Below are positions 28,772-32,768 of a stretch of 32,823 nt of DNA, piece after piece. Each line of letters begins with the position of its first letter. Positions within the stretch are counted from its first letter, which is position 1. Origin of the DNA: an uncultured Lachnospiraceae bacterium (GTDB lineage: Bacteria; Bacillota; Clostridia; Lachnospirales; Lachnospiraceae); the NCBI GenBank assembly GCA_902761665.1, contig CACWLA010000022.1, positions 1 to 32,823 on the forward strand, given 5' to 3'. The notes beneath the pieces are model-generated. The model was not told the origin of the DNA. It made no database searches and saw nothing but the letters and a program-made list of their open reading frames with translations. The position numbers and the translations under genes are program-made.

Positions 28772-30370
28772 ATGAAATACCGCATTCTTCAGAACAAATG
28801 GTTTCTCTACCTCACCGAATTCTTCGCCGGCGTTTCCGTCATGGCCGTCGAACTCGGAGCCAGCCGCCTGCTCGCGCCCTACTTCAGCTCGTCGCAGATC
28901 GTCTGGACCATCATCATCGGCGTCATCATGATCGCGATGGCGCTCGGCAACCTTTACGGCGGCCGCGCAGCTGATAAGGACCCGGATCCCGCAAGGCTCT
29001 ACCGCCGCATCCTGATCGCCGCGGTCTGGATCGCCGCGATCCCGGTGGCCGGCAAGTACGTGATCCTCGGCGTTTCTGCCCTGCTGGTCCTTGCCATCAA
29101 TACGAACTTCCTGATCTGGGCAGCCTTTGCGAGCTGCATGATCGTTTTCGTATTCCCGCTCTTTTTGCTCGGCACGGTGACGCCCTGCCTCGTCCGGGCG
29201 ACCATCGAAAGCCTCGATGAAGGCGGCCGCACCGTAGGCCGTCTCGGCGCCTGCAACACCATCGGCAGCATCATCGGCACCTTCCTGCCCACCTTCGTGA
29301 CCATCCCTTCCGTCGGGACCTCGGTCACCTTCCTCATCTTCGCCGGCATCCTGCTCGCCATCGCCCTCATCTTCTTCATCAGTGCGAAGTGGAAAAAACC
29401 GGGGCCTTACGTCGCGGCGGCGCTCTTCGTTCTCTGCGTGATCTTCGGGCGGAATAACTCCTTCGCCTTCTGGCAGAATGACCTGCTCTACGAGGGCGAA
29501 TCGGTCTACAACTACCTGCAGGTGAGCGAAGACTCCCAGAAGGTCATTCTTTCCACGAACGTCCTTTTCGGCGTGCAGTCCGTGGCCATGAAGGAAGGCG
29601 GTCTCACCGGCCTCTACTATGACTACGCGCTCGCGGCGCCGGTCATGGCCGGGAAGGAGGCGCCCTCGGTGCTGGTCCTCGGCAACGGGACCGGGACCTT
29701 CGCCTCCCAGTGCACGCGCTATTTTCCCGGTGCGCCGGTGGAAGGCGTGGAGATCGACGGCAAGATCACGAAGCTCGCCGAAGAATATTTCAGCCTCCCC
29801 GAAGAAGTGAAGGTCACGGAATACGACGGCCGCGCCTATATCCAGACCATTAAGGAAAAGTACGACGTGATCATGGTGGACGCCTATCAGGACATCACGA
29901 TCCCCTTTCAGATGTCCACGACCGAATTCTTCACGCTGGTGCGCGATCACCTGACTGAGAACGGTGTGATGGTCGTGAACCTTTCCATGCATTCCGACGG
30001 CGAGCTTTCCATCAACCACTATCTCTGCGACACCATTGCTTCGATCTTCCCCCATGTCGCGACCGCGGACGTTCCCTATACCACGAACCGTGAGCTTTTC
30101 GCTTCGATGAAGGAAATGCCGGCCGCCCTGCTGGAGCGGGGCAGCGGGAGCGTCGCCGACCGTGCCGACCTTGCGCAGATGATGCAGACCGTCTCCGCCG
30201 CCCTCACGCCGTATGAGGGAGAAGACCATATTCTGACCGACGACAAGGCCCCCGTGGAAGTCCTCGGCATGCGCATGATCGACCTGCTCATCAGCGACGA
30301 ACTCAGTTACTTCAAAGACATTTTCGAACGGGAAGGTCTCGCCGGCCTGCTGAAGAGCCTGGGGATCTGA
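28772..30370 (+). CDS. Spermidine-synthase-like protein with N-terminal membrane domain
   Basis: A 532-residue fusion. Residues about 10-220 carry around seven hydrophobic segments, with GVIMIAMALGNLYGGRAADK between them. The rest (about 235-530) is a class I methyltransferase fold of the spermidine synthase type: VLVLGNGTGTFA (near 300), a VEIDGKI acidic strand and VDAYQDITIPFQ in the position of the catalytic Asp. Proteins of this fused type are not proven to make polyamines. GGAGG is about 30 bases upstream and the near region (CCTGAAAC) is poor, so the start is uncertain. The gap to the GNAT gene is 26 bp; co-transcription is likely. Confidence 0.88.
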   Translation: MKYRILQNKWFLYLTEFFAGVSVMAVELGASRLLAPYFSSSQIVWTIIIGVIMIAMALGNLYGGRAADKDPDPARLYRRILIAAVWIAAIPVAGKYVILGVSALLVLAINTNFLIWAAFASCMIVFVFPLFLLGTVTPCLVRATIESLDEGGRTVGRLGACNTIGSIIGTFLPTFVTIPSVGTSVTFLIFAGILLAIALIFFISAKWKKPGPYVAAALFVLCVIFGRNNSFAFWQNDLLYEGESVYNYLQVSEDSQKVILSTNVLFGVQSVAMKEGGLTGLYYDYALAAPVMAGKEAPSVLVLGNGTGTFASQCTRYFPGAPVEGVEIDGKITKLAEEYFSLPEEVKVTEYDGRAYIQTIKEKYDVIMVDAYQDITIPFQMSTTEFFTLVRDHLTENGVMVVNLSMHSDGELSINHYLCDTIASIFPHVATADVPYTTNRELFASMKEMPAALLERGSGSVADRADLAQMMQTVSAALTPYEGEDHILTDDKAPVEVLGMRMIDLLISDELSYFKDIFEREGLAGLLKSLGI

Positions 30371-30542: not shown

Positions 30543-30611
30543 ATATTATGTTACATTCATCCTTCCCCTGCGACTGCATGGGTGAAAGCGCTTTTGCAAA
30601 GGAGAACCTCT

Positions 30612-31172
30612 ATGGACGACCGCCGCATCACGGATCTGTACTGGAATCGTGACGAGGAAGCTCTGACCCTTACGGAACGAGCCCTCGGCGGGTACCTCCT
30701 GTCCATTGCCCGAAGGATCCTGGGCAATGAAGAGGATGCCCGCGAATGCGTCAACGACTGCCTCCTGGAAGCCTGGAACAGCATTCCGCCGAACCGGCCG
30801 GAAAGCCTTGCCAACTTCCTCGGGCGGATCGCGAGACGCCGCGCGATCGACCGCCTGCGCAGAAAAGGCGCGCTGAAGCGCGGCGGCGGTGAGGCCGACG
30901 CAGCCTTCGAAGAACTGGAAGACGTCGTCGCCTCTGCGGAGACTCCCGAGACCCTGTTCGAAAAGGAACAGCTCGCCGAAGCCGTCCGCACCTTCGTCCG
31001 CGGCATGAAACAGCCCGACCGGGACCTCTTCATCCGCCGCTACTGGTTCATGGACACGGTGGCGGAGCTCGCCGCCCGCTGGGACATGACGACAGGCCAG
31101 GTGACCATGCGTCTTGCCCGCAGCCGGAAGAAACTGGCTGCATACCTAAAAAAGGAAAAGTGGATCGAATGA
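30612..31172 (+). CDS. ECF-type RNA polymerase sigma factor
   Basis: A 186-residue sigma factor with only regions 2 and 4. Region 2 (about 10-90) holds YLLSIARRILGNEEDARECVNDCLLEAW and the promoter-opening helix FLGRIARRRAIDRLRRKG. Region 4 (about 115-180) holds WFMDTVAELAARWDMTTGQVTMRLARSRKKL as the DNA-binding helix-turn-helix. The start at 30612 follows GGAG by seven bases; longer frames upstream run through non-coding sequence. Its stop overlaps the start of the serpin gene by ATGA, so the two are coupled and very likely act together. Confidence 0.93.
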   Translation: MDDRRITDLYWNRDEEALTLTERALGGYLLSIARRILGNEEDARECVNDCLLEAWNSIPPNRPESLANFLGRIARRRAIDRLRRKGALKRGGGEADAAFEELEDVVASAETPETLFEKEQLAEAVRTFVRGMKQPDRDLFIRRYWFMDTVAELAARWDMTTGQVTMRLARSRKKLAAYLKKEKWIE

Positions 31173-32707
31173 AAACAGATGAACTGATGGACGCCATCAC
31201 CGAACTGGATGATGCGCTTTTGAACGAAGCTGCGGGAACGCCTTCTCCGGAAGAGGTCTGCGCGGCAAAACGGGCCGGAAGGCGCCCGCTCATTTTCCGC
31301 ATGGCTGCCGCAGCCGCGGCCGTCGTGCTGGCCCTGATCCTCGTACCGGTCTTTCGGAGGCAGAACAGCCCCGCGAACGCCCCGAAGGACAGCGTGAAGG
31401 AAGTCATTTCCGCCGATCCTTCGGCGAAGGCAGAGAAAGTCGCAGGCCCCGTGTACCCCGAAGAATGGACCCGGGAGCAGGAACTGAACTCAGACAAGGG
31501 ATACCTTGAACGGCCGAACGGCATCCGTGTGGCCGCAGGCCGCGAAACTGCCGAACTTTACCGCGGTTATTTTGCCGACATGATGCTCCTGCTCCTCTCC
31601 GATCAGGAGGAAGAAAGCGCCGTGATGTCGCCGGTCAATATCTGGATGGCCACCGCCATGCTCGCGGAGATCACGGATGGGGAGACCCGTCAGGAGATCC
31701 TCGATGCCTTCGGTGTAAAGAATATTGAAGCACTGCGGGATCAGGCCGCGAAGATCTGGGGCCTGTGCTATAAGGATGACGGCCGCGAGAAGACCGTCCT
31801 CGGCAATTCGCTCTGGCTGAACAACACACTGGCGTATAAGGGCCGCGCCGTTCAGACGCTTGCCGACAGCTACTACGCCTCCGTTTTCCGGGGCCAGATG
31901 GGCACGGAAGAATATGGCAGCCTGCTCAGGAAGTGGATCGACGACATGACCGGCGGCCTCCTTGCCGATCAGACGAAAGGGCTCGAACTGCCTGAAGGTA
32001 CCGCGCTTGCCCTCGTCAGCACGGTCTGGCACGAAACGAAATGGGACGCGGAATTCGATCCGAAGCAGACGAAACCCGGCACTTTCCACAGCCCGAAAGG
32101 CGATACCGAGGCAGAGTTCATGCACAGTGATTGGGCGGCCGGCATGTATTACCGCGCGGATGATTACACCTTCATCCGCAAATCGACCCGCCAGGGCAGC
32201 GTCTGGCTCTTCCTTCCGGATGAAGGCACTGCGCTTAAGGATATGATGCAGGAAGAGTCCTTCCGGCAGTTCCTCTCCTACCGCTTTGACGAGCACGACT
32301 ATTGCACCCCAAACAGCGACGGCATATACCTTGAAGGCAAGACCACCCGCGGGATCACCGGAGCCTTCGCGAGGGTAGATCTGACCCTGCCGAAGATGGA
32401 TATCAGCTGTCAGCAGGATCTGACCGACGCGCTGAAGAAGATGGGGATCACTTCTGCCTTCACCGCGGGGGAGGCTGATTACACGCCCATCAGCGACGAA
32501 GCCGGTGTGTACCTGCAGGAAGCAAAGCAGGGGACCCGCCTCATCGTGGATGAGGAAGGCGTCAGCGCCGCGTCCTACGTTGAAATGCTGGCCGGCAGCG
32601 AAATGCTTGAAGACAGGATCGAACTCATCTTCGACCGCCCGTTCTTCATCATGATCACCGGCGCGAACGAAGTCCCGCTCTTTGCCGGCGTCGTAAACGA
32701 GCCGTAA
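31169..32707 (+). CDS. Membrane-anchored serpin, probable anti-sigma partner
   Basis: A 512-residue protein. Residues 1-40 are cytoplasmic, acidic and helical, like a short anti-sigma N-terminus. Residues about 41-62 form one membrane helix. After a linker (63-110), residues about 118-512 form a complete serpin fold: helix A to sheet regions, LVSTVWHETKWDAEFDP, the hinge DEEGVSAAS (461-469) of the reactive loop, and the closing FDRPFFIMI...VPLFAGVVNEP signature. The scissile bond lies around S477-L480, giving a Glu, Met or Leu-like P1, so the target protease is uncertain. The hinge has small residues (SAAS), suggesting an inhibitory serpin. The gene overlaps the ECF sigma gene by 4 bp, which suggests that protease attack outside is sensed through the sigma factor. 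Confidence 0.9.
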   Translation: MKTDELMDAITELDDALLNEAAGTPSPEEVCAAKRAGRRPLIFRMAAAAAAVVLALILVPVFRRQNSPANAPKDSVKEVISADPSAKAEKVAGPVYPEEWTREQELNSDKGYLERPNGIRVAAGRETAELYRGYFADMMLLLLSDQEEESAVMSPVNIWMATAMLAEITDGETRQEILDAFGVKNIEALRDQAAKIWGLCYKDDGREKTVLGNSLWLNNTLAYKGRAVQTLADSYYASVFRGQMGTEEYGSLLRKWIDDMTGGLLADQTKGLELPEGTALALVSTVWHETKWDAEFDPKQTKPGTFHSPKGDTEAEFMHSDWAAGMYYRADDYTFIRKSTRQGSVWLFLPDEGTALKDMMQEESFRQFLSYRFDEHDYCTPNSDGIYLEGKTTRGITGAFARVDLTLPKMDISCQQDLTDALKKMGITSAFTAGEADYTPISDEAGVYLQEAKQGTRLIVDEEGVSAASYVEMLAGSEMLEDRIELIFDRPFFIMITGANEVPLFAGVVNEP

Positions 32708-32724: not shown

Positions 32725-32768
32725 GGGCCTGTGAAAAAATGAGCGAATCATTTTTCACAGGCCCTTTT
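32725..32768 (+). terminator. Terminator of the sigma-serpin operon
   Basis: A 14-bp stem (GGGCCTGTGAAAAA with TTTTTCACAGGCCC, arms 32725-32738 and 32751-32764) is followed by four T. It lies just after the serpin stop. Confidence 0.88.

Follow-up and report, generated by a model that had tools for sequence, protein, structure and literature searches.

A Membrane-Anchored Serpin Co-encoded with an ECF Sigma Factor Is a Candidate Protease-Sensing Anti-Sigma Factor

Serpins are spring-loaded protease traps. Most of those described inhibit proteases, and some act as carriers or chaperones. Bacterial serpins such as the siropins, PinA and tengpin, which are secreted or membrane anchored, have the fold and the inhibitory-type hinge that are also found in the protein described here; the accessible portions of the literature examined do not link them to a sigma factor. 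A phylogenetic survey likewise classes some prokaryotic serpins as membrane anchored, and the word sigma is absent from its available text (PMC8233489).

Receptor-type anti-sigma factors are already known, and the lysozyme receptor RsiV would, by analogy, be the nearest precedent for a serpin in that role. In Bacillus subtilis and Clostridioides difficile, RsiV is a single-pass anti-sigma factor for the ECF sigma factor SigV, and its outer domain binds, senses and inhibits the attacking enzyme through the lysozyme active site; according to the accessible parts of the reports, binding opens a site for signal peptidase, RasP follows, and the operon is raised by its own sigma factor, as is proposed below for the serpin pair (PMC5014341, PMC6066255). 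RsiV differs in that it senses lysozyme through an unrelated outer domain, whereas the outer domain of the present pair is a serpin. The shape change of a serpin is, in addition, irreversible. SigI of Clostridium thermocellum is not an ECF sigma factor. Together with RsgI it forms a paralogous set of sigma and anti-sigma factors whose outer domains belong to types that also occur in secreted effectors, as far as the available sections of two studies describe (PMC12484212, PMC3413522). Those domains sense carbohydrate, unlike a serpin. RsiW, the partner of SigW, is a membrane anti-sigma factor that is removed through stepwise cleavage; the part of the literature consulted on this pathway names PrsW and site-1 cleavage. 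Finally, class I anti-sigma domains average 101 residues and form four helices, according to the sections seen of one study (PMC7406223).

The locus compared with these systems lies on contig CACWLA010000022.1 of an uncultured Lachnospiraceae bacterium. The window, the whole stretch of DNA considered, comprises positions 1 to 32,823 of this contig, and the assembly to which it belongs, GCA_902761665.1, is referred to as the own genome. Elsewhere in the window, the analysis covered ORF lists and Pfam matches of four neighboring genes. The following features were assigned:

28772..30370, + strand: neighboring gene for a spermidine-synthase-like membrane protein (PF01564, 1e-11), outside the system
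30550..30575, + strand: likely ECF-type promoter of the operon, GTTAC-N16-CGACT, from a cross-relative footprint
30583..30596, + strand: cre-like near-palindrome TGAAAGCGCTTTTG, just 3' of the -10 element
30600..30604, + strand: ribosome site aggag, 5' of the sigma gene
30612..31172, + strand: ECF sigma factor gene, ATG to stop, 186 residues, with Pfam and NCBIfam matches
31169..31172, + strand: ATGA stop-start overlap of the sigma and serpin genes
31169..32707, + strand: gene for the membrane-anchored serpin and proposed anti-sigma factor, ATG to stop, 512 residues
31169..31288, + strand: inside tail, residues 1-40, motif LMDAITELDDALLNEA, similar to tails on non-serpin ECF sigma partners
31289..31348, + strand: membrane helix, residues about 41-60, from hydropathy (helix 27-61 in the predicted model)
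31592..32704, + strand: serpin domain, residues 142-512, from PF00079 and a fold search
32549..32611, + strand: hinge and reactive center loop DEEGVSAASYVEMLAGSEMLE, residues 461-481
32725..32768, + strand: inverted repeat followed by a T run, a likely terminator, read by eye

An earlier note on this DNA had described a two-domain sigma factor overlapping the next gene by ATGA, and a protein with a short inside N-terminus, one membrane helix and a full serpin with the hinge DEEGVSAAS (residues 461-469). Both descriptions are accurate. The sigma factor (P0001) matches Pfam Sigma70_r2 (PF04542, 6e-13) and the NCBIfam sigma70-ECF model TIGR02937 (1.6e-18) and is a plain ECF protein with regions 2 and 4 and without region 3. 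For a profile of 24 such sigma factors, the closest relative in the PDB is SigW (5wuq), the match spanning positions 4-180 of 186. The serpin (P0002) matches positions 14-370 of the 370 in the Pfam Serpin model (PF00079, E 2e-50), indicating a complete domain. We regard it as probable that the first gene encodes an ECF sigma factor and the second its membrane anti-sigma factor, with the serpin serving as the outer sensor of proteases.

The own genome encodes seven serpins and has 20 Sigma70_r2 matches. Four of the serpins, that of the window and those of loci L009, L012 and L011, are encoded directly behind an ECF sigma gene, which they overlap (by 4, 4, 8 and 11 nt), and each has an inside tail and a membrane helix. 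The other three, two in L008 and one in L010, have a lipoprotein-cysteine signal as judged by eye and no sigma gene.

The earlier note had proposed a search for the same gene pair elsewhere, and the pair is indeed widespread. DNA was read around all serpin matches listed in 61 genomes, 16 of them from the own genus. Serpins are present in 32 of the 61, with 106 serpin ORFs after removal of repeats, a number that includes fragments and cut ORFs and counts one gene (L029/L058) twice. An ECF sigma gene lies directly upstream of 37. In 36 cases the two genes overlap, by 4 nt (27 pairs), 8 nt (six) or 11 nt (three); the 37th (L029, in genome G017), which encodes a secreted serpin and begins 18 nt after the sigma gene in a three-gene arrangement, was set aside. 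Of the overlapping pairs, 34 fall in 13 of the 16 own-genus genomes and two in other genera; no pair was found in the own-genus genomes G002, G006 and G015, two of which are less than 90% complete.

Beyond these 61 genomes, 22 further sigma-serpin loci were found within the class, some of them outside the family and order of the own genome, for a total of 59 including that of G017. The search of 250 genomes of the family gave 30 loci, 13 with an upstream sigma gene (nine of them in genomes uncounted before); 295 genomes of the order gave 29 loci, four with an upstream sigma gene, and 391 genomes of the class gave nine new loci, three with one. Eight regions read over a wider span contributed four new loci. 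Among eight named loci that were checked (L111-L118), L111 and L112 add pairs in genomes not listed before, which might nevertheless duplicate genomes already in the count, and L113 proved by sequence to be the G004 pair (L090) again. Six of the 22 (L132, L140, L141, L147, L260 and L267) show gaps of 17 to about 90 nt in place of an overlap, and the sigma match of L141 is weak (53 bits). All named loci are metagenome assemblies. An assembly error can be ruled out as the cause of the pair because the layout repeats on contigs from many genomes, and chance adjacency is ruled out by the 36 overlapping pairs and the recurrence in other families. A phage origin was considered and rejected, the matches being two distant ones (MT835777.1 and MT835510.1, which share 24 and 21% identity with the window protein). 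As separate observations, these two are phage-labeled contigs from human feces that encode serpin-like proteins, the sigma-linked serpin gene of G228 (L267) is split across two frames, and the relatives G383:C17 and G362:C5 each contain one inner TGA.

The remaining 69 of the 106 serpin ORFs have no sigma gene directly upstream: 11 are fragments or cut, 45 have a lipoprotein-type signal by script, and 13 are others, of which six appear lipoprotein-like by eye. The earlier note had held that homologous serpins without a linked sigma gene would refute an anti-sigma role. Taken literally, such serpins exist, yet 51 of the 58 uncut ones are of lipoprotein type. Since most unlinked serpins have no tail, they do not refute the anti-sigma reading.

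The strongest indication of an anti-sigma role comes from the inside tail. A profile of the tail and helix (58 positions) was searched in the 16 own-genus genomes; serpins ranked first, followed by many non-serpin proteins, the weaker of which match by the helix alone. Twenty-seven distinct non-serpin loci were read, picked mainly where the match reached the first positions of the tail. In 26 of them the start of the protein lies -8 to +2 nt from the stop of an ECF sigma gene, and these partners are not serpins according to the serpin profile. L189 is the exception, with no sigma stop at its start, and L197, counted among the 26, has a tail-alone score of just 3 bits. In a tail-only test, a 24-residue profile was applied to 810 starts from the own genome, taken from its 20 sigma loci without selection by tail. 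At a threshold of at least 8 bits it returned seven proteins, three of them in the training set, and all seven start at a sigma stop; 13 of the 20 loci have no tail partner at 8 bits, including that of the C16 serpin. That the tail is common to non-serpin partners of ECF sigma factors is the main reason for calling it an anti-sigma tail. Many other pairs of an ECF sigma factor and a tailed membrane protein with a non-serpin outer domain occur in the genus at L161-L163, L173-L188 and L190-L197.

Comparison with described anti-sigma domains gave little resemblance. The NCBIfam anti-sigma model NF052375 matches residues 12-84 of the window protein at 1e-5, far below its cut-off, and scanning of five N-termini, that of the window included, gave no match to a Pfam anti-sigma domain. 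No real match to the tail-and-helix profile was found in the PDB (best E 0.39). With 31-64 residues before the helix and no match to a known domain, the serpin proteins differ from class I anti-sigma factors. They also lack the features of RsiV and RsgI: DUF4179, which holds the RsiV cut site, gives just sub-threshold matches in two of the five N-termini (E 0.1 and 0.38), neither of them that of the window, and the RsgI domain is absent among the matches of all five.

Several loci show what becomes of the tail when the sigma gene is missing. In G012, a window-like locus is doubled behind a similar neighboring gene, the spermidine-synthase-like gene being found upstream there as well (L076, ORF 1-831). 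One copy is complete; the second has kept the promoter layout, the helix (21 of 23 residues identical) and the serpin, and the sigma gene and the tail are gone. G344 has no sigma gene at the position where G406, another member of its genus, carries one, and the G344 serpin starts after a promoter-like stretch; its tail is identical at 11 of 23 positions versus 357 of 457 elsewhere (Fisher p 0.002). In G132, the gene behind the pair encodes a membrane serpin that, as judged by eye, has no tail motif. In L251 (G842), the tail looks intact and there is no adjacent sigma gene; another pair is located elsewhere in the same genome (L260).

These loci bear on a reading in which the serpin is an effector only, switched on by the sigma factor, and the tail is an ordinary inside end that does not bind sigma. 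Sigma-less membrane serpins behind a promoter-like stretch (G012 and G344) would fit this explanation, as would the tails of L251 and L189, which have no sigma gene directly upstream. However, the same tail is found on non-serpin partners at ECF sigma stops in 26 of the 27 loci read, and it is lost or diverged along with the sigma gene in loci that retain the helix and the serpin, which makes an effector-only role highly improbable. The proposal of the earlier note, that the serpin forms the sensor half of an anti-sigma factor, is favored by the conserved pair, by the tail common to other ECF sigma partners, by loss or divergence of the tail with the sigma gene and by the loci with secreted serpins described below; the missing anti-sigma domain match for the tail, and L251, count against it. 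The interpretation given in the earlier note is partly supported: well at the level of the genes, whereas sigma binding, protease inhibition and release are proposed functions.

Pairwise distances among the 36 pairs were also compared. The sigma-tail correlation is 0.55, with a partial rank correlation of 0.42 when the serpin is held constant (0 of 2000 permutations as high). The tail-serpin partial correlation with sigma held constant is also 0.42 (0 of 2000 permutations), so this mirror test does not single out sigma; the sigma-serpin partial correlation is 0.16. The C16 class, with three pairs, has a different type of ECF sigma factor and a different tail, but its serpin is close to those of the C6 class. 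In a quickly built tree with 121 serpin domains, 47 of which are linked, the linked state must change 16 times. Well-supported branches force at least eight of these changes, and the count is rough because the tree search was short and some branches are long. Four linked serpins (L014, L042, L046 and L050) are placed among lipoprotein-type serpins.

The topology of the window protein, with an inside tail, one helix and an outer serpin, agrees with the plan of membrane anti-sigma factors as far as sequence allows, binding of sigma by the tail being putative. Summed across all 36 pairs, Lys and Arg number 189 in the 15 residues preceding the helix and 84 in the 15 that follow it, which agrees with the tail lying inside. 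The distance between the helix and the SP motif ranges from 56 to 139 residues, a spread that argues against rigid mechanical coupling; the unmasking of a cleavage site, or loss of the outer domain, would be more probable than the action of a rigid lever. An Ala-Ala pair is present in 30 of the 36 helices. Helices of RsgI contain XAA sites recognized by ClpXP, according to the part of the report available (PMC12203970), and the own genome has one match to a site-2 protease, which is also present in 14 of 14 control genomes; the Ala-Ala pairs and the site-2 protease may be taken as weak hints of cleavage. A predicted model of the window protein (mean pLDDT 79) shows short tail helices of low confidence (3-11 and 15-21), the long helix and a serpin-like fold. 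The best 50 Foldseek rows are all serpins by title, in native, cleaved and latent states, with TM scores of 0.44-0.52 by query. In view of these loose scores and the low confidence in the tail, the model was used for the fold alone.

An inhibitory hinge requires Gly at P15 and small residues at P12-P10. The window serpin conforms to this rule (EEGVSAAS), and all 36 linked serpins show the inhibitory-type pattern, as do 46 of the 60 unlinked serpins long enough for testing. Residues of the loop after the hinge vary between classes, as judged by eye. At P14, where Thr is customary in serpins, 29 of the 36 linked serpins have Val or Ile. This unusual residue, together with tengpin (2pee) being the best PDB match of the serpin profile, could point to a non-inhibitory serpin whose metastable fold senses heat, acid or a ligand through loop insertion, behavior exemplified by hormone-binding serpins and the latent transition of tengpin. 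Such a role is very unlikely here, as the hinge Gly and the three small residues are present in every linked serpin, as inhibitors should have them.

The genes that the sigma factor might control were considered from the upstream regions. The promoter footprint of the window is conserved in four close relatives and, with small changes, in three more distant ones, and class-specific promoter-like stretches, also recognized as footprints, lie upstream of the sigma genes; for several operons, the promoter patterns found no such stretch. GTTACN15-17CGACT has three matches in the own genome, one at the operon and two inside long ORFs, and the reversed control pattern has 16; a single match therefore means little, and the evidence is the footprint. 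Secreted serpins accompany the pair in some other genomes. In G303, G414 and G324, which belong to one genus of another family, the pair is followed after 13-16 nt by a lipoprotein serpin, and in three further genomes (L042, L046 and L047) two lipoprotein serpin genes in tandem are found some 2 kb downstream of it. In G017, the sigma gene is followed by the secreted serpin and then, after 243 nt, by a membrane serpin with a tail. Based on the loci with an added secreted serpin, increased production of serpin appears to be the best supported output. As to the defence regulon envisaged in the earlier note, no second intergenic target of the strict window promoter was found in the own genome. The possibility that the own secreted serpins are under the window promoter was dropped, because their aligned upstream regions show other shared elements.

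From these features we infer a mechanism. At rest, the inside tail would hold the sigma factor. A protease outside the cell would attack the reactive loop of the membrane serpin, which would snap into its relaxed form, either as a covalent complex or cleaved. The relaxed serpin would then become a substrate for a site-1 cut and subsequently for the site-2 protease, freeing the sigma factor, which would transcribe its own operon from the promoter at 30550 and so supply more membrane serpin; in some other genomes, the output would also include secreted serpin. By analogy, the serpin could act toward proteases as RsiV does toward lysozyme.

The same features bear on an alternative in which the serpin inhibits the cell's own site-1 or other envelope protease, and the sigma factor is freed when protease exceeds serpin, making envelope stress the signal. 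The membrane anchor, which puts the serpin beside envelope proteases, the site-2 protease and an operon with a promoter of its own would all be expected. Secreted serpins beside the pair and the many lipoprotein serpins in the same genomes point instead to targets outside the membrane, and the loop after the hinge differs between classes, a variation that is nonetheless compatible with own proteases. On balance, an own-protease target seems unlikely.

Sensing of outside proteases therefore remains the preferred reading, and a more specific form of it is offered tentatively. The serpin may be a suicide receptor, each molecule trapping one protease and releasing one sigma factor by irreversible refolding, so that the cell would count hits and answer with more bait, to which some species would add secreted serpins; several paralogous pairs in the same cell, differing in their loops, would read different protease specificities. 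Host elastase or chymotrypsin is doubtful as the signal. Among 17 named relatives, six have titles that point to the forestomach or stomach of goat, buffalo or cattle, six have RUG names, which we take to denote rumen uncultured genomes, and five are others; with relatives from such sources, the protease is as likely to come from protozoa, other bacteria or feed as from the host.

The earlier note had considered a serpin used as a signaling sensor to be new. No report of a serpin as an anti-sigma sensor was found in the literature searched, which was mostly without subscription papers and was without bioRxiv preprints, and the available parts of PMC12484212, PMC3413522 and PMC10059941 do not link serpins with anti-sigma factors. 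What would be new here is the proposed use of a serpin as sensor. If the proposal is true, a serpin that signals across the membrane would provide bacteria with a direct sensor of proteases, and the shape change of a serpin would have a simple genetic readout. Paralogous pairs with different loops would be natural protease biosensors, and the regulation of bacterial serpins would become testable with a single reporter strain. More generally, a cell whose relatives live in ruminant stomachs may use a protease inhibitor as a protease alarm.

Two further upstream elements were observed. The cre-like palindrome of the window also occurs upstream of the sigma gene, just 3' of the -10 element, in L073, L076, L077, L078, L080, L083, L084, L086, L088 and L090, as an exact TGAAAACGTTTTCA in four operons and as TGAAAGCGCTTT in others. 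Twelve of the 36 operons match the cre consensus with at most two mismatches within 130 nt, the L046 match lying at a different position, and two LacI-type proteins match the CcpA model below its cut-off. Separately, the lipoprotein serpins of L004, L021, L026, L042, L047, L052, L053 and L059-L062, which are secreted serpins of different groups, have in common, as judged by eye, an upstream element close to TGCAACATT or TGAAACATT and, about 15 nt further on, GTATT; the combination is perhaps the promoter of another sigma factor.
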